From: a virus
Virus record (IMG/VR): IMGVR_UViG_3300013014_000039
Span: 1 to 52,972 of that record
DNA length: 52,972 nucleotides
Strand: one strand, 5' to 3'
The notes under the pieces are model-generated. The model had not been told where the DNA came from and searched no databases. It saw only the letters and a list, made by a program, of their open reading frames with translations. The translations under genes were made by a program, and so were the position numbers. Shown piece after piece: positions 28,676 to 48,371 of this stretch. Position 1 is the stretch's first letter; each line of letters opens with the position of its first letter.

Positions 28676-28698
28676 TTCGCTTTCTCCAGTTGGTTAAT

Positions 28699-29730
28699 TT
28701 ACAGACGAACTACAGGCACGCCATCGGACTTGATGATGTACCCCCACTTGCTCTTAGGAAGGACTGTTCCTGCCTTGAGTTCTTTCAGATTAAAAGCATT
28801 GAATGCTTTGATTATTGATGGTTTAAACACATCGCTCAACGCTTGTTTTAGATGAATATTGAATAACTCTACCTCTCGTTCAGGAGAATGGCTACTACCC
28901 CAATACCCACCGAGATGAGGTCGCGTTTCATGGAATGCTGAATAGATAACATGATGCACATTGTTAGCAAGCATGAAGAGAACTGCGGCATCTACCAGTC
29001 GGTGAGACTGAACTAGTCTTTCAAAGTTAGCCATTGCTGTTTCAGGATTCTTTCTATCAAAGGTTTTATCATTAACTAGGTCTTTGATTGTCTCCATGAT
29101 GCCTTCCTTGCTCATTGCACCAGTCATCACAGGGGCAACTTTCAAGAACTCATCATACTTACCAAGTGCTTCTTGCGCTAGTTTGCGATTCACCCTCCGC
29201 TGAAACGTTGTGTAAGGAGTTACTGTCTCTCCCATTACTTTCTTAGCGCGGTCAAGATGAAGTCTCATGCCTTTGAAGATTGGGTGCATATGCCCCGCGT
29301 TGTTCCATGCAATCGTGCCACCTCTTGCACCGCACGACTGAAACCAGTAACCGAACGCTTCACTCATATAGGTCGAGTCACCTTGCCCAAGATGCTGACG
29401 AATCTCAAATGTATTGTCAGGATACACAGTAGCAAGATGTGCGTGGTCAACCCATTTAATCATTGACTCTTTGTCCCACCCCTCCTTGAAGTTGCCACTC
29501 TCTACAACATCTACTGTCTCACGGTTCTTGTAGTAGATAGAGAACGAACCATCCTTGTTAGCGCGGAAGTGTCTGCGTGAATACTCACGCCACCCCATCG
29601 GGTAAGCATTACTTAGCCCACCGCGATAAGGCTTGATGGTCTTGGTGCGCTCAACCATCTTGTCATAGGTGAGTCCACCCGCCCACACTTGACGTACATC
29701 ATTGAAGATGTTGCCGAATCCGTAAGTCAT
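28699..29730 (-). CDS. Hypothetical protein of the MoxR/VWA operon, 343 residues
   Basis: A 343-residue protein rich in histidine and aromatic residues (YWFQSCGARGGTIAWNNAGH; NNVHHVIYSAFHETRPHLGG). No known domain is recognised. It overlaps the preceding small membrane protein gene. Its place beside an AAA+ ATPase and a VWA-metallopeptidase-like protein makes it a candidate substrate or partner of that complex (inference). Confidence 0.55.
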   Translation of the reverse strand: MTYGFGNIFNDVRQVWAGGLTYDKMVERTKTIKPYRGGLSNAYPMGWREYSRRHFRANKDGSFSIYYKNRETVDVVESGNFKEGWDKESMIKWVDHAHLATVYPDNTFEIRQHLGQGDSTYMSEAFGYWFQSCGARGGTIAWNNAGHMHPIFKGMRLHLDRAKKVMGETVTPYTTFQRRVNRKLAQEALGKYDEFLKVAPVMTGAMSKEGIMETIKDLVNDKTFDRKNPETAMANFERLVQSHRLVDAAVLFMLANNVHHVIYSAFHETRPHLGGYWGSSHSPEREVELFNIHLKQALSDVFKPSIIKAFNAFNLKELKAGTVLPKSKWGYIIKSDGVPVVRL

Positions 29731-32549: not shown

Positions 32550-33458
32550 TTAGTTAAGGGTTAGGGGTTTGAACTTGTTCAGCATATCGTCTACACCGTG
32601 TTTAACAGTTGAACGAACATACGAACTCTCGCGTAAGTCTTCGAGTGTGACACCCGACAGCGCTTCCTCCAGTTGCGCTCTAGCAGACTCAAGATGTTGA
32701 TTATTTGTCAAGTTAAAGTGTTTCAATGTCTCGCAAATGTCCCGCGCTTGGCTGATGGTTGTCTCGTATACCTTCTTGCGCTTGACCTTGCCGTCTTCGT
32801 CAGCAGTGACCTCTGTACAAGCATTGCTGATGCGGGAAGCGATTTCCACCAGTCGCTCAGATGCATCTTCCATCGAACGATTCACAATCTCTTCAATTTG
32901 GTTGTTGTAATGTTGTTCCAAGTCATCTGCGATAGCCGTAGCAATGCCACCCGAACGGAAGTCGTTCTCAGGTACTTTGGTTACGAATAGTTTCAAGCGA
33001 AAGCGACGACGGATATCTTCGACTTCAGGGTACTCTGAACGATTAAACATATCGCCTTGCTTGAACGCGGAGTCACTCACGATGGTAGGGTACTTGTCTA
33101 TGAAGTTGTCCAATAACTTGTTGAACTCAACCTCATGCGCTGACCACTCCTTCATGAATTTCTCGATGCTGAATGTTGGTAGCAATCTAACCGAACCCGC
33201 CCAGTCGTAGGTGCAACGCTGAAGCCAGTTATAGACGGTCTGCCGATAGTTGAGCAATGCTTTGTGGTCAGGCGAGTTAGACAATAAGTTCTTGGTGAAC
33301 TTGCCTGCCTCAGTAGATGCGTTCTTAGAAGAAGTCACCTCGTTGCTGATTTGTTTGTCTTGCTTGGTCGCAGTCCACACATTGACCTCCACTGTTACAA
33401 GTTGCGCAGAACTTGCGAGTGATATGAGGTGATTAGGTTTTTGGATTTCAAAGTTCAT
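32550..33458 (-). CDS. DUF3150-like protein
   Basis: A 302-residue, mostly helical protein. The N-terminus (LVTVEVNVWTATKQDKQIS) and the helical remainder resemble DUF3150 proteins encoded next to phage MoxR-type ATPases (recalled). No catalytic motif is seen. The start codon abuts a TTTCA-N8-TGAAT element at 33458-33475. It lies directly upstream of the ATPase with a 26-base gap, so a structural partner of the ATPase/VWA complex is a reasonable guess. Confidence 0.6.
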   Translation of the reverse strand: MNFEIQKPNHLISLASSAQLVTVEVNVWTATKQDKQISNEVTSSKNASTEAGKFTKNLLSNSPDHKALLNYRQTVYNWLQRCTYDWAGSVRLLPTFSIEKFMKEWSAHEVEFNKLLDNFIDKYPTIVSDSAFKQGDMFNRSEYPEVEDIRRRFRLKLFVTKVPENDFRSGGIATAIADDLEQHYNNQIEEIVNRSMEDASERLVEIASRISNACTEVTADEDGKVKRKKVYETTISQARDICETLKHFNLTNNQHLESARAQLEEALSGVTLEDLRESSYVRSTVKHGVDDMLNKFKPLTLN

Positions 33459-33475
33459 TTCAGTATCCTGTGAAT
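33458..33475 (-). promoter_or_regulatory. TTTCA-N8-TGAAT dyad element (imperfect copy)
   Basis: TTTCA, 8 bases, TGAAT on the plus strand, touching the start codon of the DUF3150-like gene. This is a near match to the repeated dyad at 33943, 34722, 35130, 35745, 36577 and 37453. Confidence 0.4.
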
Positions 33476-33481
33476 GGTTGA

Positions 33482-33694
33482 TTAGCGGAAGAGTCCGCCC
33501 TTGTTGTTAATTCCCTTGAGGTCATCAAGGTTCGTAATGAGCATATAGTTGCTCTTGTGCATGGGCGCAATGGTGCGCACACGCGACCGCGCATCTTCCT
33601 CACCGCATAGCAGACAGATGGGGTAACCCGCCTTGGCACGCTTTGCTGAGAAGATGTCACCACACCGTGAACAGATAGGTCTGAGTTTAGACAT
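33482..33694 (-). CDS. Zinc-ribbon small protein, conserved in phages
   Basis: A 70-residue protein with C8, C11, C27 and C30 (CSRCGDIF; CLLCGEE) forming a zinc ribbon, followed by a conserved tail MHKSNYMLITNLDDLKGINN. I recall this tail from many tailed phages, but no function is proven. It lies between two small early genes. The initiation site is weak, so it may depend on coupling to the preceding gene. Confidence 0.7.
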   Translation of the reverse strand: MSKLRPICSRCGDIFSAKRAKAGYPICLLCGEEDARSRVRTIAPMHKSNYMLITNLDDLKGINNKGGLFR

Positions 33695-33699
33695 AACTA

Positions 33700-33924
33700 T
33701 TACAGAGTATGGAAGTTGATATCCATCTCACGAATGCGATAGACATGATGCTCGTCGAGTTCATCATCTGCCTGTTGACAGAGACGCATCTCATACTCGG
33801 CTGTGTCCTTGCTTGCGTAGGCTTCGATAGACTTGCCATCGACTACGAGCAGATACACCTTGGGAGTGATGTTTATTACAGACAGCCCCTCAATGGCGGA
33901 CTGATACGCTGACTTCATTTTCAT
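33700..33924 (-). CDS. Hypothetical early protein, 74 residues
   Basis: A short protein (MKMKSAYQSAIEGLSVINIT) with a beta-rich core and an acidic end. I chose the ATG at 33924 because AAGGA lies just upstream; the longer frame runs into the leader. It is the first gene behind the promoter at 34023-34051 and probably opens the operon that continues through the DUF3150-like, AAA+ and VWA genes. Confidence 0.55.
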   Translation of the reverse strand: MKMKSAYQSAIEGLSVINITPKVYLLVVDGKSIEAYASKDTAEYEMRLCQQADDELDEHHVYRIREMDINFHTL

Positions 33925-33942
33925 ACGCTTTCCTTTGGTTGA

Positions 33943-33965
33943 TTTCATTACCCTGTGAAACGCTA
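33943..33965 (-). promoter_or_regulatory. TTTCA-N8-TGAAACGCTA dyad element
   Basis: TTTCA (33943-33947), 8 bases, TGAAA (33956-33960), then CGCTA. It lies in the leader of the 74-residue gene, 19 bases before its start. It could be an operator or an RNA hairpin controlling translation. Confidence 0.55.
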
Positions 33966-33985
33966 GATAGCATCTCACCCCACTA

Positions 33986-34015
33986 GAGTCTGTTGAACAG
34001 TTCCAATCCCGACTC
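33986..34015 (-). other. 5'-terminal leader hairpin
   Basis: GAGTC / GACTC stem whose first base lies 7 bases after the -10 box of the promoter at 34023, so the transcript should begin with it. The same leader start (GAGTCGGGA) occurs at 35163-35184. Confidence 0.5.
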
Positions 34016-34022
34016 AGAATAC

Positions 34023-34051
34023 ATTGTATCATAACTTTACATTTAAGTCAA
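34023..34051 (-). promoter_or_regulatory. Sigma-70-like promoter for the MoxR/VWA operon
   Basis: On the minus strand TTGACT (34046-34051), a 17-base AT-rich spacer and TACAAT (34023-34028). Each box matches consensus at five of six positions. The expected start is near 34015, at the base of a hairpin. Confidence 0.75.
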
Positions 34052-34086
34052 CTACATATGTAACTTTTTTACATGAGGGGTTACCC

Positions 34087-34281
34087 CTAGTCCCCATGCT
34101 TTGAGATTGGCTCGAACTTCTCGGCAGTCCATGCATGGTCTACGCTCTCAGTCACGATGTAGCCTTGGCTCTTGGCTAACTCCTCAAGTGCGGGCAGACA
34201 CACCATGTATGTTGCTTCTTCGTCAAACTGTGCCACCGCGTGCGCACCCGCCTTCGCTTCGAAATAGACTGTAACTTTCAT
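34087..34281 (-). CDS. Hypothetical early protein, 64 residues
   Basis: A small protein (MKVTVYFEAKAGAHAVAQFD) with an alternating beta start and a helical middle. AGAGG precedes the ATG at 34281, and an upstream extension of the frame lacks a ribosome site. No function is recognised. The sequence AGGGGTAACCCCT around its stop could form a small hairpin. The 120 bases upstream of its start show no other gene. Confidence 0.5.
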   Translation of the reverse strand: MKVTVYFEAKAGAHAVAQFDEEATYMVCLPALEELAKSQGYIVTESVDHAWTAEKFEPISKHGD

Positions 34282-34401
34282 TTCATACCTCTCTGAAGTT
34301 TTAATATCCGCACCCAGTCGATGCGGGACAAGAACCACCTGAACAATGGGACAGAACAGTCTTGGCATAAGACGTTCGGGTTGTCTCCCTTAGATTGCAT
34401 T

Positions 34402-34695
34402 TCACAGCCCCCTGACATCATTGTTAATGCAGTACTCCATGAACTCAGAGAAGTCTGAGAACTTGTTCTTGCGTGTCTCGTCGTGGAAGTCGGACTCTTG
34501 CAAGACTGGCAGTTTCAATGCCTTGCCCATCATGTCCAAGACATTCTGCACATCTTCTAATGATTCGCTACCCACAGACACATCGCTATGCCCTTCGGGT
34601 TTCCTGTTCTCGTCGTAGTACACCTCGCGTACACAGTACCAATCCTCACCGCCATTCTCAGACCTGAGATTCACAATTCGATAGTTCCAAAACAT
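34402..34695 (-). CDS. Conserved small early phage protein, 97 residues
   Basis: A protein beginning MFWNYRIVNLRSENGGEDWY and continuing with a CVREVYYDENRKPEGHS-type beta pattern. This N-terminus is common among small phage and prophage proteins of unknown role (recalled). AAAGGAA precedes the ATG. A perfect 10-bp hairpin of the dyad family lies 22 bases upstream. Confidence 0.6.
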   Translation of the reverse strand: MFWNYRIVNLRSENGGEDWYCVREVYYDENRKPEGHSDVSVGSESLEDVQNVLDMMGKALKLPVLQESDFHDETRKNKFSDFSEFMEYCINNDVRGL

Positions 34696-34716
34696 ATTGA
34701 TTCCTTTGAAGTTGAA

Positions 34717-34744
34717 TAGCGTTTCACGGTGTCATGAAACGCTA
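34717..34744 (-). promoter_or_regulatory. Perfect TAGCGTTTCA-N8-TGAAACGCTA hairpin/operator
   Basis: A perfect 10-bp inverted repeat with an 8-base centre between two early genes, and the most symmetric member of the dyad family. No sigma-70 boxes are seen next to it, so here it more likely acts as RNA structure or operator than as promoter. Confidence 0.6.
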
Positions 34745-34766
34745 CTTGCTGTATTGATTGTTTAGA

Positions 34767-35108
34767 TTAAAGTGTGTTGTAGCCAGTGCAGAACTCGAAC
34801 AGTTCCACCTCGCTAGTTGGCTCGACGATAGTCAGTCCCTCGAACTCGTCGTCAATGTCGTTGAACTCGTCATAGCCGTAATCTCTTGCTAAGAACTCCA
34901 AGTTCTGATTGTGATAGTCATCTGTGCGAAAGTCTGTGCGCAGATAATGGTCGACACCCTGATGCGTATTGCATACTGCCTTCGGGGTTGTAACGCGCAA
35001 TGCTTTGCGCATTGGGCGGGGCAGATATTGATATGGTCGGTCAAGTACTTTTGGTTGTCGTACTATGACCCGTGTTGTGTTGATGTTATAGACGAAAGAT
35101 GTTTTCAT
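34767..35108 (-). CDS. Hypothetical early protein, 113 residues
   Basis: A protein with a basic first half (MKTSFVYNINTTRVIVRQPK, then YLPRPMRKALRV) and an acidic second half (FNDIDDEFEGLTIVEPTSE). The ATG at 35108 has GGAGAG upstream. The longer frame would begin inside the regulatory dyad. It is the first gene after the promoter at 35192-35220. Function unknown; the charge split suggests a protein-binding role. Confidence 0.55.
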   Translation of the reverse strand: MKTSFVYNINTTRVIVRQPKVLDRPYQYLPRPMRKALRVTTPKAVCNTHQGVDHYLRTDFRTDDYHNQNLEFLARDYGYDEFNDIDDEFEGLTIVEPTSEVELFEFCTGYNTL

Positions 35109-35129
35109 TACGCTCTCCATTGATTGAAA

Positions 35130-35147
35130 TTTCATGACCCCGTGAAA
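35130..35147 (-). promoter_or_regulatory. TTTCA-N8-TGAAA dyad element
   Basis: TTTCA (35130-35134), spacer TGACCCCG, TGAAA (35143-35147). It lies in the leader, 22 bases before the start of the 113-residue gene. The same spacer is found in the copy at 35745. Confidence 0.55.
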
Positions 35148-35162
35148 TGTTATTTAGCGGGT

Positions 35163-35184
35163 GAGTCAGGCTACCTCCCGACTC
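35163..35184 (-). other. 5'-terminal leader hairpin
   Basis: GAGTC / GACTC stem (6 bp with flanking T-A) and a 12-base loop, starting 7 bases after the -10 box of the promoter at 35192. Confidence 0.5.
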
Positions 35185-35191
35185 AATTCAG

Positions 35192-35220
35192 ATTTTACCA
35201 CAGTTACTTGTTTAATACAA
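35192..35220 (-). promoter_or_regulatory. Sigma-70-like early promoter
   Basis: TTGTAT (35215-35220), 17 bases, TAAAAT (35192-35197) on the minus strand. The -35 equals that of the promoter at 36546-36574. It would drive the 113-residue gene and its followers. Confidence 0.6.
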
Positions 35221-35282
35221 GTCTTTATACAACTTTTTTATATCGCTCTGGCGGGTGTGATTTGGTTATTTGTAAAGTGGTG

Positions 35283-35740
35283 TTGGAACTTTGGAACTGG
35301 GTTGGAATCACAAAAAACTAGGTTAGTTATAGTAATAGTACTAGTAGTAGTAGTAGTAGTTATAGATATAGATATATAAAGTATTATATATATTTGTTGT
35401 AGTACTACATGATTCCAAAGTTCCAAAATTCCAGCAGTTTTGCGTTATGGCTGGCAGTTACCTATCTGCTTAATTTGTGGGCAATGTATGGTTTGTTTAG
35501 CACAATGCTTACACTCGCAGGCGATGATGAACGAACGAGATGATGCTCCAAAGTCCGTTGTCCTCAAAAAAAACTGGAATTTTGGAATAAATCGCGTAAG
35601 TCCTTGATTCATAAGGCTTTTTCCGATTCCAGCGTTGGAATTTCGTTGGAACAAAGTTGGAATCTTGTTCCAATAAACTGCTCGGTTCCAAAATTCCAGT
35701 ACGATTCCAAGCGGGTTGGAACTGGGTTGGAACTTTGGAA
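35283..35740. repeat. TTGGAA iteron array with AT-rich segment; candidate origin of replication
   Basis: Fifteen copies of TTGGAA or its complement lie between 35283 and 35740 in a gene-free stretch. Copy starts are 35283, 35291, 35302, 35413, 35421, 35582, 35635, 35646, 35657, 35668, 35686, 35705, 35716, 35727 and 35735. Several neighbours are exactly 11 bases apart, others 8, as expected if proteins bind on one face of the helix. Between the copies lies a TAG/TA-rich tract at 35325-35400 that should melt easily. Iterons plus an AT-rich element is the usual make-up of a replication origin. A partition or transcription control site is possible. The region 35221-35744 shows no believable gene. 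Confidence 0.6.
35325..35400. repeat. TAG/TA simple-repeat AT-rich tract
   Basis: Runs of TAGTAG and TATAGATATAGATATATA within the iteron region, nearly free of G+C. It is a likely DNA-unwinding element if this is an origin. No reading frame is supported. Confidence 0.6.
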
Positions 35741-35744
35741 CAAA

Positions 35745-35767
35745 TTTCATGACCCCGTGAAACGCTA
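35745..35767 (-). promoter_or_regulatory. TTTCA-N8-TGAAACGCTA dyad at the iteron boundary
   Basis: TTTCA (35745-35749), TGACCCCG, TGAAA (35758-35762), CGCTA. It directly adjoins the last iteron. Unlike the copies at 36577 and 37453 it is not followed by a recognisable promoter. Confidence 0.5.
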
Positions 35768-35790
35768 TTTAAGACGCTTGCCCACGCACG

Positions 35791-35814
35791 CGCAGGGACA
35801 TATAACTGGCTTCA
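35791..35814 (-). repeat. Inter-cassette box A, copy 4
   Basis: Divergent copy of the box whose minus-strand core reads CCAGTTATwTGTCGTCG in the best copies, lying between a terminator and a dyad element. See copies at 36620, 37498 and 38169. Confidence 0.5.
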
Positions 35815-35822
35815 GCCCAAAC

Positions 35823-35858
35823 AAAAAAAACCCGACTAACCTTTCGGCTAGTCGGGTT
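35823..35858 (-). terminator. Intrinsic terminator of the 204-residue gene
   Basis: Stem AACCCGACTA / TAGTCGGGTT with a loop that can add a CC/GG pair, followed on the minus strand by eight T. It lies just after the stop at 35873. Confidence 0.8.
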
Positions 35859-35872
35859 GGGCTAATCAAGTA

Positions 35873-36487
35873 TTACTTGATTGCTTTCAGGAAGGCATCA
35901 ATTGCCACCCTTGTCTTAACTTCGTCGGCTGTTGCGTCACCCCTAGCCTTCGCGTTCTTACATCTAGTTTTAATTGTATCCATAACTTTCCCAACATAAG
36001 TTGCGAAGTCATCAGTAGTTCCTCTCTCCCTTGTCTCAGGGTTAAGGTCGCGTATAGCCTTGAGCAAAGCCTTCATTTTATTGAATGCATACTTGTTGAA
36101 TGGTGTTCTTACACCACCAATCACACCATGCTTAACAGGCTCGGCTTGGCGTAGTTGCCCAAATTGTTGTTGCGAGAACGACAAGGCATAGGCAAGGGTT
36201 ACTTCATTGCCACCCTTGGCATCAGGAATCCATTCGCTGTTATAGCGTTTGGCTGGGTTTAGTTCTTGCCAACGGAGAGCCCAACCCTCGGTTAACTGAG
36301 CCTTAACCTCGGCTGGAACATCTTCCAAGATGTTGGGGCATTGGTCGAAAACATATTTAGCAACAAGGCTAAGATGTTCAACGGCTAATGCCGACTGGTA
36401 ACCCGCATTCTTGAGGTTATCGATAGAGAGAAATGTAACTTGCGTTACGCTAGGTGTGGCTAATGCCACAGGTGATTTTGCTTTCAT
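35873..36487 (-). CDS. Cassette gene, paralogue A of a tandem pair (204 residues)
   Basis: A 204-residue, helical, basic protein starting MKAKSPVALATPSVTQVTFL. I chose the ATG at 36487 with GGAGAAC upstream. The frame extends further but would start inside the promoter. It shares SFSQQ-FGQL, an HG...FNKYA-N segment, RERG and KNA-ARGD-TA with the 218-residue protein encoded next to it. No domain is recognised. It is a monocistron with its own promoter, leader hairpin and terminator, which suggests high early expression. A DNA-binding or host-takeover role is speculative. Confidence 0.65.
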   Translation of the reverse strand: MKAKSPVALATPSVTQVTFLSIDNLKNAGYQSALAVEHLSLVAKYVFDQCPNILEDVPAEVKAQLTEGWALRWQELNPAKRYNSEWIPDAKGGNEVTLAYALSFSQQQFGQLRQAEPVKHGVIGGVRTPFNKYAFNKMKALLKAIRDLNPETRERGTTDDFATYVGKVMDTIKTRCKNAKARGDATADEVKTRVAIDAFLKAIK

Positions 36488-36514
36488 TGTGTTCTCCATT
36501 AAAAGCAGGTTTGT

Positions 36515-36538
36515 GCAGGTGACAACCTCGCCACCTGC
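36515..36538 (-). other. 5'-terminal leader hairpin
   Basis: Perfect 7-bp stem GCAGGTG / CACCTGC with a 10-base loop. It starts 7 bases after the -10 box at 36546, so it should form the 5' end of the transcript. Confidence 0.6.
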
Positions 36539-36545
36539 TAAACAT

Positions 36546-36574
36546 TTATTAGCACAGGCAAGGCGCTTATACAA
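36546..36574 (-). promoter_or_regulatory. Sigma-70-like promoter of the 204-residue cassette gene
   Basis: TTGTAT (36569-36574), 17 bases, TAATAA (36546-36551). The dyad element at 36577 lies 2 bases upstream of the -35 box. Confidence 0.6.
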
Positions 36575-36576
36575 GT

Positions 36577-36599
36577 TTTCAGCCACCCGTGAAACGCTA
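36577..36599 (-). promoter_or_regulatory. TTTCA-N8-TGAAACGCTA dyad upstream of the -35 box
   Basis: TTTCA, GCCACCCG, TGAAA, CGCTA. Spacing to the -35 box is 2 bases, as in the copy at 37453, consistent with an activator or repressor site. Confidence 0.6.
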
Positions 36600-36619
36600 A
36601 ATAGGCGCACGCATACACG

Positions 36620-36643
36620 CGCGACGACATATAACTGGTCTCA
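36620..36643 (-). repeat. Inter-cassette box A, copy 3
   Basis: Minus-strand core CCAGTTATATGTCGTCGCG between the terminator of the upstream cassette and the dyad element. A G/T-rich stretch links the two. Confidence 0.65.
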
Positions 36644-36651
36644 GCGGGCAC

Positions 36652-36685
36652 AAAAAAACCCCGCAGACCTTGTGAGTCTGCGGGG
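36652..36685 (-). terminator. Intrinsic terminator of the 218-residue gene
   Basis: Perfect 10-bp stem CCCCGCAGAC / GTCTGCGGGG with a 7-base loop and a run of seven T on the minus strand. Confidence 0.85.
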
Positions 36686-36696
36686 TGAGTAGCTAA

Positions 36697-37353
36697 TTAC
36701 TTAGCGTTGTAGACTTTCCAGAACGCGTCTCTTGCAGTTCTGAACTTAGCGGGGTTCGCGGTATCGTCACCGCGACTTTCAGCGTTCTTTACGCGCTTGT
36801 CATAGTCAGCGAACAAGTCAGTCAAAGACTGAATGAAAGCTTTTGTAGCACCGCGTTCGCGGGTCTTACCCTCATTCAGAATGTTATAAGCTGACCGCTT
36901 TAACGCTGTCAAATTATTTGACGCGTATTTGCTGAACTTATCGCGCATAAGCTTGACTAGTCCATGTAGTTGTGGGTCTTTGTTTTTCAGTTGACCGAAC
37001 TCTTGCTGACTGAATGAGTAGCAGTAATGCAAACTCAATGTAGTAGACCCTTTAGGGTATTCAGCTTGTCCATCAAGCGAGTTACCCGCTTTAATGAGTA
37101 CACCGCTTTCACCGCGTGTGAAATAGTCCTGACCCCACAATTCATGAGCGCGTGTCATGAAACCCGCATACAAGTCAGCTTTGAGTTCAGCGCTTGTCTC
37201 AGCGGGAAACGATGGGTCTTGACCCATCACATAGGTTGCAAGGTGTGTTGCAGTTTCACCAGCACGAGCGAAGCGGTAAGCCGCATCTTTAATACTGGTG
37301 GGTTCGGTTGCCGTCAAAGCGATATCGGCAGAAGCTTTAGCTGTAGCTTTCAT
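36697..37353 (-). CDS. Cassette gene, paralogue B of a tandem pair (218 residues)
   Basis: A 218-residue protein. The alanine-rich N-terminus (MKATAKASADIALTATEPTS) is followed by YSFSQQEFGQL, HGLVKLMRDKFSKYASNN, TRERGA and KNAESRGDDTA, shared with its neighbour. It is not a known family to me. AGGAG precedes the ATG. It is a monocistron between its own promoter (37422-37450) and terminator (36652-36685). Tandem duplication with separate control suggests two diverged products needed in quantity. Confidence 0.65.
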   Translation of the reverse strand: MKATAKASADIALTATEPTSIKDAAYRFARAGETATHLATYVMGQDPSFPAETSAELKADLYAGFMTRAHELWGQDYFTRGESGVLIKAGNSLDGQAEYPKGSTTLSLHYCYSFSQQEFGQLKNKDPQLHGLVKLMRDKFSKYASNNLTALKRSAYNILNEGKTRERGATKAFIQSLTDLFADYDKRVKNAESRGDDTANPAKFRTARDAFWKVYNAK

Positions 37354-37398
37354 GCTAACTCCTAAAAACGCGGTGTGAGCGACACCGCAAACGCTGAC

Positions 37399-37414
37399 CA
37401 GACTGAACTGTCTG
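37399..37414 (-). other. 5'-terminal leader hairpin
   Basis: CAGAC / GTCTG stem with a 6-base loop, starting 7 bases after the -10 box at 37422. Confidence 0.5.
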
Positions 37415-37421
37415 ATAATTA

Positions 37422-37450
37422 TTTATAGCTGACCCTGAAACAATATGCAA
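37422..37450 (-). promoter_or_regulatory. Sigma-70-like promoter of the 218-residue cassette gene
   Basis: TTGCAT (37445-37450), 17 bases, TATAAA (37422-37427) on the minus strand. The dyad element lies 2 bases upstream. Confidence 0.7.
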
Positions 37451-37452
37451 GG

Positions 37453-37475
37453 TTTCAGCCATCCCTGACACGCTA
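37453..37475 (-). promoter_or_regulatory. TTTCA-N8-TGACACGCTA dyad upstream of the -35 box
   Basis: TTTCA, GCCATCCC, TGACA, CGCTA. One mismatch from the consensus dyad, same position relative to the promoter as at 36577. Confidence 0.55.
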
Positions 37476-37497
37476 ATTAAGCACACGCACAGACGCA

Positions 37498-37521
37498 CGC
37501 GACGACAAATAACTGGTATCA
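37498..37521 (-). repeat. Inter-cassette box A, copy 2
   Basis: Minus-strand core CCAGTTATTTGTCGTCGCG, identical in this stretch to the copy at 38169. It lies between a terminator and a dyad. Confidence 0.7.
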
Positions 37522-37533
37522 AAAACTTCAGGC

Positions 37534-37569
37534 AAAAAAAAACAGACATGGCGCAAAGCCATGTCTGTT
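37534..37569 (-). terminator. Intrinsic terminator of the 155-residue gene
   Basis: Perfect 12-bp stem AACAGACATGGC / GCCATGTCTGTT, 5-base loop, then seven T on the minus strand. Confidence 0.85.
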
Positions 37570-37577
37570 AGCGTACG

Positions 37578-38045
37578 TTACTCTTCGCAAACGTATTTTG
37601 TAGTTAACACTTCTTTCATCTCGCGTTTAACAACCACCTTCTTACAAGTGGGACTATCTTCTTTCACGTATGCAATGATCTCGAATTGAATCTTGTCTGA
37701 CTCTATGGTGTAACGCTTGTAACCCCAATCCGCTACATCGCGCTCTTCTACATCATTGCCAATCACATCCATACACTTGGATATCAACGAAGTTAGACGC
37801 TCGTCTTTAAGACTATCTAACTTGTACAAGTACGCAGAGATGTAAGGCTTCTTACCAATCCATGACATGCTGAGAGAGTCGTTATCCCCATCAAATCCAT
37901 CAACAAGTGAACCGTACAAGGCACGTAATAGCATACGATTTTTTTGCAAATCCTGCGCTTTGTGTAAGTACATTTGTGATTCACTTCTATAAGAGTTGAT
38001 TTGAGAGTTGATCAATTTAATGATCGGGTTTGATTTACGTTTCAT
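37578..38045 (-). CDS. Cassette gene, 155-residue hypothetical protein
   Basis: A basic protein with a helical N-terminal half (MKRKSNPIIKLINSQINSYR) and a beta-rich, charged C-terminal half ending TTKYVCEE. No domain is recognised. GGAG precedes the ATG. Like its two neighbours it is a monocistron with its own promoter (38105-38133), leader hairpin and terminator. It shows no clear similarity to the paralogous pair. Confidence 0.6.
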   Translation of the reverse strand: MKRKSNPIIKLINSQINSYRSESQMYLHKAQDLQKNRMLLRALYGSLVDGFDGDNDSLSMSWIGKKPYISAYLYKLDSLKDERLTSLISKCMDVIGNDVEERDVADWGYKRYTIESDKIQFEIIAYVKEDSPTCKKVVVKREMKEVLTTKYVCEE

Positions 38046-38078
38046 TTAATACTCCAAAAAGTTAAAAGATAATTACCT

Positions 38079-38098
38079 ACTGATTTGTCTGAATCAGT
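38079..38098 (-). other. 5'-terminal leader hairpin
   Basis: Perfect 7-bp stem ACTGATT / AATCAGT with a 6-base loop. It starts about 7 bases after the -10 box at 38105. Confidence 0.6.
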
Positions 38099-38104
38099 AT
38101 TATT

Positions 38105-38133
38105 TATATAGCGGTTAAATAGATATTTTGCAA
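38105..38133 (-). promoter_or_regulatory. Sigma-70-like promoter of the 155-residue cassette gene
   Basis: TTGCAA (38128-38133), 17 bases, TATATA (38105-38110). A degenerate remnant of the dyad (CTAGCCATTGG) lies upstream where the other cassettes have a full copy. Confidence 0.65.
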
Positions 38134-38168
38134 ACATCTAGCCATTGGATCGCACACGCCCATACTCA

Positions 38169-38192
38169 CGCGACGACAAATAACTGGTATCA
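38169..38192 (-). repeat. Inter-cassette box A, copy 1
   Basis: Minus-strand core CCAGTTATTTGTCGTCGCG between the terminator at 38201 and the promoter at 38105. Confidence 0.7.
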
Positions 38193-38200
38193 ACTGGGCG

Positions 38201-38228
38201 AAATAAAAAGGGAGCCGAAGCTCCCTTT
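38201..38228 (-). terminator. Intrinsic terminator of the first leftward operon
   Basis: Perfect 9-bp stem AAAGGGAGC / GCTCCCTTT, CGAA/TTCG loop, then a T-rich tail on the minus strand, just after the stop at 38231. Its stem resembles the late terminator at 47749. Confidence 0.8.
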
Positions 38229-38230
38229 CC

Positions 38231-38482
38231 TTACCAGCCTGGGAATCTATCTAGTTGATAGTGTTCCTTACCGCGACCATGCTTCGCTCTGTATATCCTC
38301 TCTTCATATACTAGTTTGAGATGGTTAACTTTGGCTTGATACTCCTTAACAGCATCACGTATTTGTTTTATCCAATGATGCGCTTCAGGGTTACTCTTTC
38401 TTAAATCATAGAGTTGAGTGTTAGTCAAACTCAATGCAAACTTCTCTTCATCTATCTCGTCAAACAGTTCTAGTTGTGTCAT
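38231..38482 (-). CDS. Hypothetical early protein, 83 residues
   Basis: A mostly helical protein (MTQLELFDEIDEEKFALSLT, then AVKEYQAKVNHLKLVYEERI) with a basic C-terminus. AAAGGGG precedes the ATG. It is the last gene of the three-gene operon that starts at 38960. Function unknown. Confidence 0.55.
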   Translation of the reverse strand: MTQLELFDEIDEEKFALSLTNTQLYDLRKSNPEAHHWIKQIRDAVKEYQAKVNHLKLVYEERIYRAKHGRGKEHYQLDRFPGW

Positions 38483-38485
38483 GTC

Positions 38486-38776
38486 TTACCCCTTTGGTGG
38501 TGTGTTAAAACTATTCTTGGTGTTGACACCATATGCGTCATAGTGATCTTCAGCGTGCTCTTGATCCCATGTAGGTTCTTTGAATGACGGGTCAATTCTG
38601 ATTAGCAGTTGGAAGAAAGCCAACGCACCACAAGTAATTGCTATCGTGTCCCAACCTATATGTAGGTTGCCTGATGTAATGTCGAGTGCATTACAGTAGA
38701 ACCGAGCCATCACCATCATGCCGAGTAGAAACCCGCTCATTACATTTATAAAAGCCTTAACAAATCTTACTTCCAT
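38486..38776 (-). CDS. Small membrane protein, two helices
   Basis: A 96-residue protein with hydrophobic helices at about 9-28 (INVMSGFLLGMMVMARFYC) and 44-60 (TIAITCGALAFFQLLIRI), then a polar acidic tail. AGGAG precedes the ATG. Early expression argues against a holin. Superinfection exclusion or membrane modification is more likely, but unproven. Confidence 0.6.
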   Translation of the reverse strand: MEVRFVKAFINVMSGFLLGMMVMARFYCNALDITSGNLHIGWDTIAITCGALAFFQLLIRIDPSFKEPTWDQEHAEDHYDAYGVNTKNSFNTPPKG

Positions 38777-38780
38777 TTGA

Positions 38781-38960
38781 TTACTCCTGAGTTAATTGTT
38801 CGACTAGCATTGCAAACTTCGCTTCGAGCACATCATCAGACCATTGTGCTATCTCAGCATAGTGTTCAGGTGATGGGCGCATACCATACGCATCTTTATG
38901 TAGGTCGCTGTATTCGCAACGCATCTGTTCATGCTTAGTCATATCAGTCCATGCTTTCAT
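38781..38960 (-). CDS. Small early phage protein with KDAYGMRPS motif, 59 residues
   Basis: A 59-residue frame with a GGAG site upstream of the ATG. The segment CEYSDLHKDAYGMRPS is a signature I recall from many very small phage proteins of unknown function. The rest is helical (QWSDDVLEAKFAMLVEQL). It is the first gene of the leftmost-reading early operon, 4 bases before the membrane protein gene. Confidence 0.7.
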   Translation of the reverse strand: MKAWTDMTKHEQMRCEYSDLHKDAYGMRPSPEHYAEIAQWSDDVLEAKFAMLVEQLTQE

Positions 38961-38984
38961 ATCAATCTCCAGTTAGTTAATGAA

Positions 38985-39002
38985 TACCGAATCGCTTCGG
39001 TA
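38985..39002 (-). other. 5'-terminal leader hairpin
   Basis: Perfect 7-bp stem TACCGAA / TTCGGTA with a 4-base loop, starting about 6 bases after the -10 box at 39008. Confidence 0.6.
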
Positions 39003-39007
39003 ATATC

Positions 39008-39036
39008 TATATACATGATGGGTATGGCATTTGCAA
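39008..39036 (-). promoter_or_regulatory. Sigma-70-like promoter of the first leftward operon
   Basis: TTGCAA (39031-39036), 17 bases, TATATA with a TG just before it (39008-39013). Same boxes and spacing as the promoter at 38105. Confidence 0.65.
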
Positions 39037-39047
39037 TTCTCCAGAGA

Positions 39048-39075
39048 CCCCTACCCCCATTCCCCCCACCCCCCC
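39048..39075 (-). other. Four-run G tract (potential G-quadruplex) on the minus strand
   Basis: On the plus strand C4, C5, C6 and C7 runs separated by 2, 3 and 1 bases. The minus strand can therefore form a G-quadruplex and the plus strand an i-motif. It sits just upstream of the leftward promoter, in the divergent control region. Confidence 0.7.
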
Positions 39076-39150
39076 TTTCCGCATTTGGGACCCCCGCCTC
39101 CCTCTACTCTAAGACTTACACAAACAACACAACAAAATCCCAAACTTCGG

Positions 39151-39220
39151 TATACTGACCCCGCAACGCAGTTGCATTTTGTCTCTCCTTCTTTAGACCC
39201 CCCCAGTGGGGGTCTTTTTT
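39151..39220 (+). ncRNA. Possible small RNA between divergent operons
   Basis: TATACT (39151-39156) could serve as a -10 box, although no good -35 is seen. The transcript would start near 39163, contain a small GCAAC / GTTGC hairpin and end at the strong terminator at 39196-39220, giving about 58 bases. No gene ends here on this strand, which makes the terminator otherwise unexplained. Confidence 0.3.
39196..39220 (+). terminator. Strong intrinsic terminator in the divergent region
   Basis: Perfect 7-bp GC-rich stem GACCCCC / GGGGGTC, 5-base loop, six T. It acts only rightward. It lies about 115 bases before the TerS start, so it may insulate late genes from early readthrough. The stretch 39221-39334 holds AT-rich TATATA segments that could be the late promoter, but no clear -35/-10 pair. 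Confidence 0.8.
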
Positions 39221-39334
39221 CTGCCCCGCTACTGTATATAGGTGTTTTCCCTAGTACCCCCCGGGTAGGAGTCCCAACCTCCCCTTATATATGTGGTATA
39301 TTTCGCAAACCATAACTGGAGTGCCACTTCCTCC

Positions 39335-39904
39335 ATGCAAGAACTCGTCCCTGACATTGAAAGCAATGTCCCATTACCAGCCTCCGCGACAGAGGCTATG
39401 CCCGACCTGTCTCCAAAAGAAGAGTTGGAGATGCGAGCTAGGACGGTAAAGTTGATTTCTGACCTATCGGGTAAACCCGTAGAACCGGGTCAAGAACACA
39501 AAGATCAGGCTAAAGATATAGTACAAACCCTAATGTCTCAGCCTCAAAATGCGGTTAATTTAGCCCAATATCCCAACGAAACTGTTGCTTATTTGGCTGG
39601 AATGGTTGCCCAACACGACGTTATGGTCGTAAAAGAGCTGGCTGACCTCAAGAAATACGTAGTAAATAAGCTGGTTGCTGAGACCGAACACCCAGATGCC
39701 AAGATTCGACTAACAGCACTACGTGCTTTAGGTGAAGTTGATGGCGTGGATGCATTCAAGAAGCGCTCCGAGGTCACCCATAAGCAACAATCTATGGAAG
39801 AAGTCGAGAAAGAGCTGCTCGAGACCCTCGCTAAGTTGGAAAAACGCACGATTGACGTGGAAGTTATAGAAATAAAGTATGAAAATAACGCCACAGCAAA
39901 TTGA
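39335..39904 (+). CDS. Terminase small subunit candidate
   Basis: About 189 residues from ATG at 39335 (MQELVPDIESNV); an ATG 14 codons upstream is possible. The segments QYPNETVAYLAGMVAQHDV and KLVAETEHPDAKIRLTALRA, and the charged helical C-terminus with SMEEVEKELLETLAKLE, match a conserved gene found directly before TerL in environmental podovirus-like phages (recalled). It should bind the packaging site and regulate the large subunit. It overlaps the TerL start by 26 bases. The assignment rests on position and pattern, with no DNA-binding motif certain. Confidence 0.65.
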   Translation: MQELVPDIESNVPLPASATEAMPDLSPKEELEMRARTVKLISDLSGKPVEPGQEHKDQAKDIVQTLMSQPQNAVNLAQYPNETVAYLAGMVAQHDVMVVKELADLKKYVVNKLVAETEHPDAKIRLTALRALGEVDGVDAFKKRSEVTHKQQSMEEVEKELLETLAKLEKRTIDVEVIEIKYENNATAN

Positions 39905-41396
39905 AAAGCTTAAAAGTCTGCTGCCAACGGCATCATCAGACGAAAAACGCAAGATTCTTGAGCTAATTAAGGTCTGGGACAGCGAATCGGTGCAGGTTGT
40001 AGGTAAAGATTCAATATTGGAGTTCGCAGAACATGTATATCCGGGTTATAAAGTTGGTCCACATCATCGAAGATTGGCAAAAATTTTTGAGGACATTGCC
40101 GCTGGCAAGAAGAAGCGAGTAATTGTCAACATAGCCCCCCGTCACGGTAAGTCTGAACTCATTTCTTACCTTGCACCCGCATGGTTTTTGGGTAAATTCC
40201 CCCATAAGAAGGTGATTATGGCCTCCCACACCGCAGATTTAGCGGTGAATTTTGGTAGAAGAGTGCGTAATCTGGTCGGTTCAGACAACTATAAAGACAT
40301 TTTTCCGCAGGTAGAACTGCAATCTGACTCTAAGTCAGCATCACGATGGGGTACTAACTTTAATGGTGAATACTTTGCTATTGGTGTCGGAGGTGCTCTT
40401 GCAGGCCGGGGTGCTGATCTATTTATTATTGATGATCCTCATTCAGAGCAAGATGCTAAAACAGGGAGGGCCGACGTATTTCTTCCTGCTTGGGAGTGGT
40501 TCCAGTCTGGTCCTATTCAGCGCCTTATGCCAGGTGGTGCCATTATTATAGTAATGACAAGGTGGTCTAAACTTGACCTAACTGGACAAATACTGAGCCA
40601 AATGGAGCGTGAAGAGGACGTAGACCCGTGGGAAGTGGTTGAGTTTCCCGCTATTTTGAACGACAAGCCACTATGGGGCGATTTCTGGACAATCGAGGAA
40701 TTGCTGTCCAAAAAAGCTGGTATGGACGTACGGTATTGGGAAGCCCAGTACATGCAGAACCCTGTATCAGAAGAAGGCGCACTAATAAAGAAGGAGTGGT
40801 GGCGCATTTGGGACAAAGAAGACACCCCTAACTGCGAGTTCATCATCATGAGTCTGGATGCGGCGCAAGAAGCCAACAATCGTGCTGACTACAACGCTTT
40901 AACTACATGGGGGGTCTTTTTTAACGAGGAGACCAACAATCACAGCATCATCTTGCTCAATGCTATTAAGAAACGTATGGAGTACCCCGACCTCAAAGCT
41001 ATGGTGCTAGAGGAATACAAGGAGTGGGAGCCAGACGCATTTATGGTTGAGAAGAAGTCGAATGGTTCTGTACTTTATCAAGAGTTCAGACGCATGGGCA
41101 TACCTGTTGGAGAGTTCACTCCGGGTAAAGGACAAGACAAGATAGCGCGTGTGAATGCGGTGTCGTCACTGTTTCAAGGTGGGATCGTGTATGCACCAGA
41201 TCGCAGATGGGCTAAAGAAGTTATTGAGGAATGCAACGACTTCCCGTCCGGGGCTAACGATGACTTAGTGGACTCCACTACCCTTGCGCTGTTAAGATTC
41301 AGGAATGGCGGATTCATTAGGCTTGAGAGTGATGAGCCTGAAGATACTGTTTGGTTTAAAGGTCGCCGCGCCAAAGAGCGGTTCTACACTGTCTAA
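39879..41396 (+). CDS. terL: Terminase large subunit
   Basis: A 505-residue packaging motor. The ATPase domain has Walker A APRHGKSE (86-93), adenine-contact-like VIMASHTADLAVNFG, and Walker B LFIIDD (181-186). The RNase H-like nuclease domain has D327 in IIMSLDAAQE, E391 in AFMVEKKSNG, and D461/D462 in GANDDLVDST. It cuts concatemers and pumps DNA through the portal encoded 9 bases downstream. The start overlaps the TerS gene; its ribosome site is weak, so translation is probably coupled. Length and motif order are normal. Confidence 0.93.
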   Translation: MKITPQQIEKLKSLLPTASSDEKRKILELIKVWDSESVQVVGKDSILEFAEHVYPGYKVGPHHRRLAKIFEDIAAGKKKRVIVNIAPRHGKSELISYLAPAWFLGKFPHKKVIMASHTADLAVNFGRRVRNLVGSDNYKDIFPQVELQSDSKSASRWGTNFNGEYFAIGVGGALAGRGADLFIIDDPHSEQDAKTGRADVFLPAWEWFQSGPIQRLMPGGAIIIVMTRWSKLDLTGQILSQMEREEDVDPWEVVEFPAILNDKPLWGDFWTIEELLSKKAGMDVRYWEAQYMQNPVSEEGALIKKEWWRIWDKEDTPNCEFIIMSLDAAQEANNRADYNALTTWGVFFNEETNNHSIILLNAIKKRMEYPDLKAMVLEEYKEWEPDAFMVEKKSNGSVLYQEFRRMGIPVGEFTPGKGQDKIARVNAVSSLFQGGIVYAPDRRWAKEVIEECNDFPSGANDDLVDSTTLALLRFRNGGFIRLESDEPEDTVWFKGRRAKERFYTV

Positions 41397-41404
41397 GGAT
41401 TTAT

Positions 41405-43894
41405 ATGGCAACAGGCATGATGGACAAAGGTTTGTATCAAGCACCTATGGGTATTGATATGATGGAAGAAAATCCTATTGAGATTGAGATCGAAGACCCT
41501 GAGTCCGTAAGTATTGGACTGGGTGATATTGAGATTGATCTAAAGCCTAAGAAAGAAACAGCAGACACTTTCGATGCCAACCTCGCCGAGTACATGGACG
41601 AGGGTGACTTGTCTGGACTAGCAAATGATTTAATTGCAGACTTTGATAAAGACATCATGGATCGTAGAGATTGGATCAAGACGTATGTCGACGGTCTGAA
41701 GCTCTTAGGTTTGAACTACGAAGACAGAACTGAACCTTGGCAGGGCGCTTGTGGCGTATTCCACCCAATGCTCACAGAGTCAGTTGTACGTTTCCAATCA
41801 GAAGCCATGATGGAGACATTTCCAGCACAAGGTCCTGTTAAGACCCAGATTGTTGGTGCTATAAATAAGTTACGTGAAGAAGCCGCCGAGCGCGTGCGTG
41901 ACGATATGAACTATCAGTTAACAGATGTGATGACTGAGTACAGACCTGAACACGAGAAGATGCTGTGGTCATTACCACTAGCAGGTTCAGCGTTTAAAAA
42001 GATTTACTTTGACCCCAACAAGGGGCGTCAAGTTGCTGTGTTTATTCCAGCAGAAGACATTGTTGTGCCATACGGCTCGTCCAACATTGAGGACTCTGAG
42101 CGTGTTACTCACGTCATGCGTAAGACTGAACAAGAAGTTATACGTTTACAAGAAGCTGGGTTCTATGCAGATGTAGATTTAGGTGAGCCAGGCTATGAGC
42201 TAGATGACATCGAGAAGCAGAAAGCTGAAGAAACAGGGATGAACGCGACTCAAGATGATCGCTTCCGTATCCTTGAGATGCATGTAAATTTAGACCTCAA
42301 AGGGTTTGAGCATACTGATAAAAAGAAACGTGAGACTGGGATTGCGTTGCCATATGTTGTTACTATAGAGAAGGGTACAAGCACCGTTCTTGCTATTAGG
42401 AGAAATTGGTATGAAGATGATGAACTCCACACGAAGCGCCAGCATTTTGTGCACTATCAGTACATCCCCGGTTTTGGATTCTACGGATACGGACTTATAC
42501 ATCTCATTGGAGGTTACGCCAAATCAGCAACCATGCTCATCCGTCAATTGGTTGATGCTGGCACTCTCTCAAACCTGCCCGGAGGACTTAAATCACGGGG
42601 CCTTCGCATTAAAGGTGATGACACGCCGATTCAGCCCGGAGAATTCAGGGACGTAGATGTCCCTTCTGGAAGTATCCGTGACAACATATTACCACTGCCA
42701 TACAAGGAGCCGTCACAAGTATTGATGGCACTGTTCCAGCAGATAGTGCAAGAAGGCCGGGCATTCGCTTCATCTGGAGATATGAATGTCTCAGACATGA
42801 GCAACGAGGCTCCTGTAGGTACAACACTAGCAATATTAGAACGCACTCTTAAAGTAATTACTGCGGTGCAAGCTCGTCTGCACTACACAATGAAACAAGA
42901 GTTCAAGCTACTCAAGATCATCATTGCGGATTACACGCCAGAAGAGTATGACTACGAGCCTGAAGATGCTAATCGCAAGGCTAAGAAGTCGGACTATGAC
43001 TCAACAGACGTCATTCCAGTCAGTGATCCAAACGCTGCGACTATGGCGCAGAAGATTGTTACGTATCAGGCCGTTCTACAGCTAGCACAACAAGCACCAC
43101 AGTTGTATAACCTGTCTGTATTGCATCGCCAAATGATTGAAGTATTAGGCGTGAAGAACGCTGATAAATTAGTCAAGACCGAAGAAGATGCTGAACCTAC
43201 AGACCCCATACAAGAGAACCAAGACATTCTTATTCACAAGCCTGTCAAGGCGTTCATGGAACAAAACCATGAGGCACACATTAGAGTGCATATGGCTGCA
43301 ATCCAAGACCCCAAGATTCAGCAGTTGATGCAGATGAACCCACAAGCTCAAGTAATTATGTCGGCGGCTATGGCTCACATCAACGAGCACATTGGCTTTG
43401 AGTATCGTCGTCAGATGGAAGAGGCTATGGGTATGGTGTTGCCAGGTAAAGACAAAGAGACAGATAAGCCTCAACGTGTGCCACAAGAGATGGCAGACGA
43501 GATTGCTATCAAGGCAGCGCAAGCATCGCAGATGTTGCTACAACAAAACCAGCAACAAGCTGCTCAACAAGCTGCGCAGCAGAAAATGCAAGACCCGATT
43601 GTTCAGATGCAAATGCAAGAGTTGCAGATTAAGCAAGGTGAGTTGCAACTTAAACAGCAGAAACAACAGATCGACGCAGCCGCTAAAGCTGACCAGATTC
43701 GTGTTGAAGAGTCCCGTATTGAGGCTCAGAAAGAAATTGCAGCTATGCAAGTTGGTGCTCAAGCTGCTGCGGCAAGAGATAAGGCTGATAAACAACAGCA
43801 AGCCGACGGCCTACGCATGGGTATTGACGCCGCTAAACACAAAGCACAGATGGCTGTACAGATGGCGCAGAGGGCAAAAAAGGAGAATAGATGA
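41405..43894 (+). CDS. Portal protein
   Basis: An 829-residue portal of the large podovirus type. The acidic N-terminus is followed by RRDWIKTYVDGLKLLGL, DRTEPWQGACGVFHPMLTES and FIPAEDIVVPYGSSNIEDSE, patterns typical of this family. The C-terminal 180 residues are a glutamine-rich coiled coil (QQAAQQAAQQKMQDPIVQMQ), probably the barrel or a scaffold-binding helix. Twelve copies would form the DNA entry channel and the base for the neck. It follows terL by 9 bases and overlaps the next start (ATGA). Confidence 0.88.
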   Translation: MATGMMDKGLYQAPMGIDMMEENPIEIEIEDPESVSIGLGDIEIDLKPKKETADTFDANLAEYMDEGDLSGLANDLIADFDKDIMDRRDWIKTYVDGLKLLGLNYEDRTEPWQGACGVFHPMLTESVVRFQSEAMMETFPAQGPVKTQIVGAINKLREEAAERVRDDMNYQLTDVMTEYRPEHEKMLWSLPLAGSAFKKIYFDPNKGRQVAVFIPAEDIVVPYGSSNIEDSERVTHVMRKTEQEVIRLQEAGFYADVDLGEPGYELDDIEKQKAEETGMNATQDDRFRILEMHVNLDLKGFEHTDKKKRETGIALPYVVTIEKGTSTVLAIRRNWYEDDELHTKRQHFVHYQYIPGFGFYGYGLIHLIGGYAKSATMLIRQLVDAGTLSNLPGGLKSRGLRIKGDDTPIQPGEFRDVDVPSGSIRDNILPLPYKEPSQVLMALFQQIVQEGRAFASSGDMNVSDMSNEAPVGTTLAILERTLKVITAVQARLHYTMKQEFKLLKIIIADYTPEEYDYEPEDANRKAKKSDYDSTDVIPVSDPNAATMAQKIVTYQAVLQLAQQAPQLYNLSVLHRQMIEVLGVKNADKLVKTEEDAEPTDPIQENQDILIHKPVKAFMEQNHEAHIRVHMAAIQDPKIQQLMQMNPQAQVIMSAAMAHINEHIGFEYRRQMEEAMGMVLPGKDKETDKPQRVPQEMADEIAIKAAQASQMLLQQNQQQAAQQAAQQKMQDPIVQMQMQELQIKQGELQLKQQKQQIDAAAKADQIRVEESRIEAQKEIAAMQVGAQAAAARDKADKQQQADGLRMGIDAAKHKAQMAVQMAQRAKKENR

Positions 43895-44085
43895 GTAACC
43901 AAGCGTTTCAATATCTAGCCAAAGAAGTTGACAAGCTTCGCGGTGATCAAATTTCCTTCCTCGCAGGAGGGGGCGCAAAAGACTTCGCCGAGTATCGGCA
44001 TGTCTGCGGTGTTATCCGGGGTCTAACACACGCAGAACAACTTGTCAGAGACCTTGTGCAGAAAATGGAGTATGCCGATGAGTGA
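43891..44085 (+). CDS. Small conserved head-region protein
   Basis: A 64-residue helical protein (FLAGGGAKDFAEYRHVCGVI, then LTHAEQLVRDLVQKMEYADE). The pattern is common directly downstream of portal genes in related phages (recalled). It overlaps both neighbours by a few bases. It may assist portal or head assembly; no function is known to me. Confidence 0.65.
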   Translation: MSNQAFQYLAKEVDKLRGDQISFLAGGGAKDFAEYRHVCGVIRGLTHAEQLVRDLVQKMEYADE

Positions 44086-44488: not shown

Positions 44489-44501
44489 AAAAGGATAAAT
44501 C

Positions 44502-45479: not shown

Positions 45480-45481
45480 AT

Positions 45482-45952: not shown

Positions 45953-45971
45953 CTTTTTAAAGGAGTCTTAA

Positions 45972-46814: not shown

Positions 46815-46825
46815 GGAGCTAAATC

Positions 46826-47737: not shown

Positions 47738-47748
47738 GAAAGACTGAG

Positions 47749-48363: not shown

Positions 48364-48371
48364 TTAATCAT

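Follow-up and report, generated by a model that had tools for sequence, protein, structure and literature searches.

In the 52,972-nucleotide (nt) stretch of DNA analysed here, referred to as the window, six host-type promoters are each followed, at the predicted transcription start, by an inverted repeat with which the RNA would begin as a stem-loop. The window covers positions 1 to 52,972 of the uncultured virus record IMGVR_UViG_3300013014_000039. The position of these hairpins, their covariation, selection on them at the RNA level and their occurrence across many phages are well supported by comparison with related sequences. The best explanation, and a probable one, is that the 5'-terminal stem-loop leaves RppH and RNase E without a free 5' end to engage; protection from decay is consistent with the position of the hairpins, their sequence independence and published precedents. 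The principle of 5'-hairpin protection is already known from T7 and ompA. What appears new, from the sequences compared, is how systematically it is used: in a wide clade of uncultured, water-borne phages, nearly all promoters of this kind have a promoter-fixed and covarying hairpin.

The first-pass annotation of this DNA had listed six early promoters with a 17-base spacer, each followed 5-7 bases past the -10 box by a short perfect inverted repeat. All six are found, on the minus strand and with a 17-nt spacer each, and the stems start 5, 6, 5, 7, 6 and 7 nt after the -10 box (promoters 39008, 38105, 37422, 36546, 35192 and 34023, respectively), where a sigma-70-type transcription start is expected. 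The term "perfect" holds for 39008 and 38105, which contain only Watson-Crick pairs, but not for 37422, 36546 and 35192, which contain G.U pairs. The stem and loop sizes are 7 base pairs (bp) and 4 nt at 39008, 7 and 6 at both 38105 and 37422, 10 and 4 (or 9 and 6) at 36546, and 9 and 6 at 35192; at 34023, 5 bp enclose a 20-nt interior. Tests against dinucleotide shuffles of the sequence downstream of each promoter gave p-values of 0.005, 0.010, 0.011, 0.001, 0.001 and 0.10 in the same order, with five of the six promoters individually significant and a Fisher combined value of 2e-8. The promoters occupy the promoter-proximal end of the minus-strand gene block and are presumed to be early. A promoter consensus scan of 33000-52972 gave 18 promoter-like sites where 28.7 are expected by chance; the promoters are therefore credible from their position and conservation and not from their match to the consensus.

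The proposal that hairpin sequences differ while their position is kept was borne out within the genome and in relatives. For example, the counterpart of 36546 in relative L004 has another stem at the same place (ATCGGCTAGC-aattcg-GTTAGTCGAT). The shared design suggested earlier is real and reaches far beyond this genome. Promoters 38105, 37422 and 36546 have in common a near-invariant box, CCAGTTATnTGTCGTCGCG, which starts approximately 75-100 nt upstream of the -10 box, and a dyad, TTC-N10-GAA, usually lies between this box and the -35. Copies of the box were gathered from relatives of the 218-amino-acid (aa) protein encoded behind 37422 and by an exact-pattern scan of a viral collection. 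At least 148 distinct copies were found in uncultured viral contigs, at least about 100 contigs in all, with a minority being chance matches or copies without a promoter. From these, 93 promoters were called using -35/-10 scores, a downstream start codon with a ribosome-binding site and a refined -10 matrix; the hairpin was never used. Pairing begins 4-8 nt past the -10 box in 80% of the 93 promoters and in 29% of dinucleotide shuffles. In a non-redundant set (40 sequences less than 65% alike) these values are 67.5% and 28%. An earlier statistic, which used contiguous stems and a permissive -10 criterion, showed an indistinct peak, and a dyad-anchored rule with strict redundancy removal retained many non-promoter copies from replication regions, which the start-codon requirement cured.

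Among the hairpins that start 3-9 nt past the -10 box, the start lies 5.69 ± 1.27 nt after it, and the distance from the end of the hairpin to the start codon is 27.5 ± 7.1 nt (range 17-46), so that the ribosome-binding site is left free. The spans are 14-41 nt (standard deviation 6 nt) and the loops 3-11 nt. The small deviation relative to the -10 box and the large one relative to the start codon indicate that the position of the hairpin is set by the start site and not by the ribosome-binding site; a hairpin serving translation would be expected to show the reverse. The stem thus lies at, or within a few nt of, the predicted 5' end, as the ompA and T7 phi10 stems do at theirs.

Compensatory changes in relatives, which the first-pass annotation had named as a check, are present in two independent leader groups. 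The alignments were made from sequence alone; the hairpins were already known when the leaders of both groups were put together by similarity, so a mild selection is involved. In group A4 (11 sequences), all cells of the nine stem pairs (100%) are standard pairs, 5 of the 9 pairs have changed on both sides, and 17 double-change cells are observed compared with 6.8 in shuffles; slid partners pair in 23-49%. In group A1 (15 sequences), 97% of the cells are paired, 5 of 11 pairs show double changes, and the slid controls reach 23-45%. A third group of five sequences is consistent with covariation but weak, and A3, in which leaders of two orthologous types were mixed and misaligned by MAFFT, was left out of the counts. 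Clean compensation is seen at 39008 (ACCGAAgcgaTTCGGT compared with ACTGAAgcgaTTCAGT in L001) and at 35192 (TGAGTC...GACTCA compared with TTAGTC...GACTAA in L004). At 37422, CAGAC...GTCTG is replaced by CGGAC...GTTCG in L002 and L005. In addition, of the 93 sense RNAs, 71 fold more stably than their complements and 11 less stably, because G.U pairs turn into A.C mismatches on the opposite strand. Together, the strand bias and the compensation indicate selection on the RNA and argue against operators and cruciforms. Pairing is kept with varied loops and not as a fixed sequence, as is the case for ompA and T7 phi10.

In the proposed mechanism, transcription would start 6-7 nt after each -10 box, and the mRNA would then open with a hairpin of approximately 7-11 bp and little or no free 5' end. 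Selection acts on the hairpin as an RNA structure tied to the predicted transcription start, and its sequence is little constrained. RppH, or a host equivalent, and the 5'-end-sensing RNase E would be kept off the transcript, and small, abundantly needed early mRNAs would last longer. The strong intrinsic terminators that end the genes behind 38105, 37422 and 36546 would also block 3' exonucleases, and the same would apply to most box cassettes in relatives. It has been shown that RppH and RNase E require single-stranded 5' ends, which explains the long-known stabilisation by 5' secondary structure (PMC3997798).

Multiple precedents have been described. The ompA and T7 gene 10 mRNAs are the named examples of sequence-independent 5' stem-loops (PMC2254391). 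In Escherichia coli ompA and papA, 5'-terminal pairing is reported to protect against RNase E (Emory 1992 and Bricker 1999, as cited in PMC3997798); these are single chromosomal genes without a repeated promoter cassette. The T7 phi10 hairpin is described as stabilising the mRNA (Mertens et al. 1996, as cited in PMC2254391), and it resembles the present ones in its 8-bp stem beginning at +1. When T7 (L145) transcripts were folded from their annotated starts, the same geometry was predicted at phi10, phi3.8, phi13 and phi17 and at two host promoters, A2 and C; A3, phi1.3, phiOL and phiOR did not show it. The phi starts carry the T7 RNA polymerase initial sequence GGGAGA, so the T7 stems are related, and several T7 promoters lack a hairpin. 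In contrast, the promoters described here are of the host type, their stems are unrelated, and the hairpin is near-universal in one promoter cassette. The T4 gene 32 leader hairpin has also been credited with mRNA stability (Gorski 1985, as cited in PMC8948821). The T4 gene 32/CUUCGG type has a fixed loop sequence and lies mostly in intergenic RNA, whereas variable loops and a promoter-set position are found here.

Several observations weigh against 5'-end protection. The 34023 hairpin alone is no better than chance (fold z +0.76; shuffle p 0.10); distant relatives show a clear stem at the equivalent point (CATAGGT...ACCTATG in L054 and L129, where the window has GAGTC...GACTC). Approximately 20% of the automatically called promoters fall outside the 4-8 nt range. 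Among the misses that were inspected, several look like erroneous -10 assignments (for example those of L037, L098 and promoter 38105 of the window itself), and the values of 80% and 67.5% are therefore probably underestimates. Of 76 hairpins, 23 share the hexaloop AATTCG/AGTTCG, and the loop may contribute; promoters of the 35192/34023 type keep GTCGGG(G)A as a sequence, which pure end-protection does not need. Both features suggest that a second function may be layered on the hairpins. The box module was not found in the isolated phages searched, and in E. coli only about 10% of mRNAs are RppH-dependent (PMC3997798).

The alternative that survives best, itself unlikely, is that the nascent hairpin acts in transcription, through promoter escape, less backtracking and fewer R-loops, or recruitment of an antitermination factor, with stability being secondary. 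Such a hairpin would likewise have a position fixed to +1 and a free sequence. The put RNA of phage HK022, also a structure near the start of early phage transcripts, is described as a 5'-proximal RNA that is able to modify RNA polymerase and suppresses pausing and termination (PMC9378689). However, no common loop, bulge or sequence is seen here, as an RNA that binds RNA polymerase would need, and the spans vary. Strong terminators follow single genes and precede most boxes, which argues against an elongation complex that ignores them.

It is also improbable, slightly more so, that the hairpins serve in the 5' leader as a translational control element or as targets of an RNA-binding protein from phage or host. 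The recurring hexaloops and the kept GTCGGG(G)A would suit a binding protein, but other lineages have unrelated loops and stems at the same place, and a position tied to the -10 box and not to the ribosome-binding site speaks against translational control.

Short palindromes at +1 are typical of repressor operators, and the repeats resemble them in this respect. That they are DNA elements (operators or cruciforms) at the start site is nevertheless very unlikely: their sequences differ among promoters and relatives, G.U pairs are kept, the complement folds worse, and the compensatory changes keep pairing and not a common site. An operator palindrome was rejected since neither a common half-site nor strand symmetry is seen. 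Promoter-proximal terminators (attenuators) yielding short RNAs are equally hard to credit. A T-rich stretch follows 24 of the 76 hairpins, and the 37422 leader has a second hairpin with TTTTT, but for 52 of 76 there is no T run directly after the stem, and termination near +26 at nearly all such promoters would be self-defeating; this candidate was rejected. The hairpin promoter of the N4 virion RNA polymerase, which has a small fixed loop and lies upstream of +1, was rejected because the present hairpins lie downstream of the -10 box at the predicted +1 and have loops of 3-11 nt.

The hairpins are part of a larger recurring cassette (Table 1). An intrinsic-terminator-like hairpin lies at most 75 nt upstream of the box in 77 of the 93 promoter-bearing copies, compared with 4% of random places. 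The unit of the cassette is thus the terminator of the previous gene, followed by the box, dyad, promoter, hairpin, ribosome-binding site and gene. The dyad form TAGCGTTTCA-N8-TGAAA has 22 matches in the window where 2.3 are expected (approximately 10-fold over-representation), mainly at 33943-37475 and 25094-29205, and is probably the operator of a phage regulator. In the lineage of L054, L129 and L130, a sequence like ATCGGA-N4-TCCGAT takes its place. A scan with the box pattern of 84,980 bacterial and archaeal species, each represented by a single genome, gave 8 matches, which is about chance level; these genomes thus do not carry the module.

Table 1. Features of the promoter cassettes in the window and hammerhead-like sequences in related loci (L numbers)
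Feature	Position	Strand	Basis or remark
-35 TTGCAA of promoter 39008	39031..39036	-	sequence
-10 TATATA of promoter 39008	39008..39013	-	17-nt spacer
Hairpin TACCGAA-gcga-TTCGGTA, 5' of 59-aa gene	38985..39002	-	fold; p 0.005; compensatory C-G to T-A in L001
Promoter 38105, TTGCAA-17-TATATA	38105..38133	-	sequence
Hairpin ACTGATT-cagaca-AATCAGT, 5' of 155-aa gene	38079..38098	-	fold; shuffle test
Promoter 37422, TTGCAT-17-TATAAA	37422..37450	-	sequence
Hairpin ATCAGAC-agttca-GTCTGGT, 5' of 218-aa gene	37397..37416	-	fold; shuffle; compensation in L002, L005
Promoter 36546, TTGTAT-17-TAATAA	36546..36574	-	sequence
Hairpin GCAGGTGGC-gaggtt-GTCACCTGC, 5' of 204-aa gene	36515..36538	-	fold; shuffle
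Promoter 35192, TTGTAT-17-TAAAAT, no adjacent upstream box	35192..35220	-	sequence
Hairpin TGAGTCGGG-aggtag-CCTGACTCA, 5' of 122-aa gene	35162..35185	-	fold z -3.65; compensation in L004
Promoter 34023, TTGACT-17-TACAAT, no upstream box	34023..34051	-	sequence
Weak hairpin GAGTC...GACTC, 5' of 74-aa gene	33986..34015	-	p 0.10, z +0.76
Upstream box copy 1, CCAGTTATTTGTCGTCGCG and flank	38152..38193	-	sequence comparison
Upstream box copy 2	37481..37522	-	
Upstream box copy 3	36603..36644	-	
Diverged upstream box copy 4, preceding TTCCAA repeats	35774..35815	-	
Dyad, TAGCG-TTTCA-N8-TGAAA type, just upstream of promoter 37422	37453..37475	-	
Dyad just upstream of promoter 36546	36577..36599	-	
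Dyad within leader downstream of promoter 35192	35130..35152	-	
Dyad within leader downstream of promoter 34023	33943..33965	-	
Terminator-like GGGAGC-ttcg-GCTCCC and T run, ending the preceding cistron	38208..38228	-	read from sequence
Intrinsic terminator past 155-aa gene	37541..37569	-	
Intrinsic terminator past 218-aa gene	36658..36686	-	
Intrinsic terminator past 204-aa gene	35829..35858	-	
Hammerhead-like sequences	L001 ~2788, L002 ~7257, L005 ~7249, L010 ~3065, L014 ~7239 and ~7485	+	
Hammerhead-like sequences	L016 ~7481, L040 ~3948, L067 ~2786, L135 ~3227	+	
Hammerhead-like sequences	L059 3127, L078 3934, L080 11214	-	reverse-complement coordinates

Other features were observed in and around the cassettes. 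The second hairpin of the 37422 leader (37369-37389, minus strand) is followed by TTTTT and the ribosome-binding site, is attenuator-like and is also present in L002, L004 and L005. A cluster of TTCCAA/TTGGAA repeats with an AT-rich tract at 35330-35405 lies at 35280-35760 (minus strand), comes after a box and dyad that have no promoter next to them, and recurs in relatives; it looks like a replication origin with iterons. The cassette proteins encoded at 36697-37353 and 35873-36487 (minus strand) are paralogs with 37% identity and belong to a family of at least 51 diverse members, for which no Pfam or PHROG match above noise was found. The AlphaFold model of the best-conserved cassette protein is confident (predicted local distance difference test score of 91), and no similar fold was found in PDB or BFVD, so the structure gives no functional clue.

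The plus strand of the record carries terminase, portal and major head genes, and the minus strand DNA polymerase, helicase, exonuclease and primase-like genes. Among cultured phages, DSL-LC04 and Pelagibacter phages have the closest terminases, at no more than 51% identity. An Rfam search of the whole window gave no matches. At 21215-21374 (minus strand), a strong promoter-like site, TTGACA-16-CATAAT at 21352, precedes a leader of more than 100 nt before the helicase gene, with no clear terminal hairpin. At 47806-47850 (plus strand), an inverted repeat of 10 perfectly matched bp, GGCGTATCAA...TTGATACGCC, and a stem nested in it lie just past the capsid-gene terminator and ahead of the next late gene; a late transcript may begin with this hairpin.

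In the same gene region of 12 relatives' loci, 13 distinct hammerhead-ribozyme-like sequences were found between early genes, compared with 0 in reversed-sequence controls of equal size. The pattern required a 6-bp stem I, a 4-bp stem II, a 5-bp stem III and a CTGANGA...GAAA...TC core; the same search found none in the window. One of the sequences scored 21.2 bits (E 0.008) against the Rfam model Hammerhead_1 (RF00163), for which the gathering cut-off is 34. Hammerheads flanking phage genes are already known (PMC3088659). If active, these sequences would leave the downstream genes with a 5'-OH, which RppH cannot process, and would thus provide a second escape from 5'-end-dependent decay.

A broader and rather doubtful idea is that these phages have a clade-wide "armoured single-gene mRNA" format, consisting of box and dyad, host-type promoter, +1 hairpin, one gene and a strong terminator, with internal cistrons of some relatives obtaining hammerhead-made 5' ends instead. 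The dozens of differing hairpins at one position form a natural experiment that parts 5' pairing from sequence effects in mRNA decay. In practical terms, the promoters with their hairpins provide cassettes that can be used as they stand, and the hairpins offer a mark by which transcription starts could be predicted in genomes of uncultured phages. The findings suggest that phages of aquatic bacteria, hosts in which RNA decay has been little studied, face a real pressure from 5'-end-dependent decay. If the armoured format is true, 5'-end protection would be a clade-wide principle of gene expression and not a trait of single messages.

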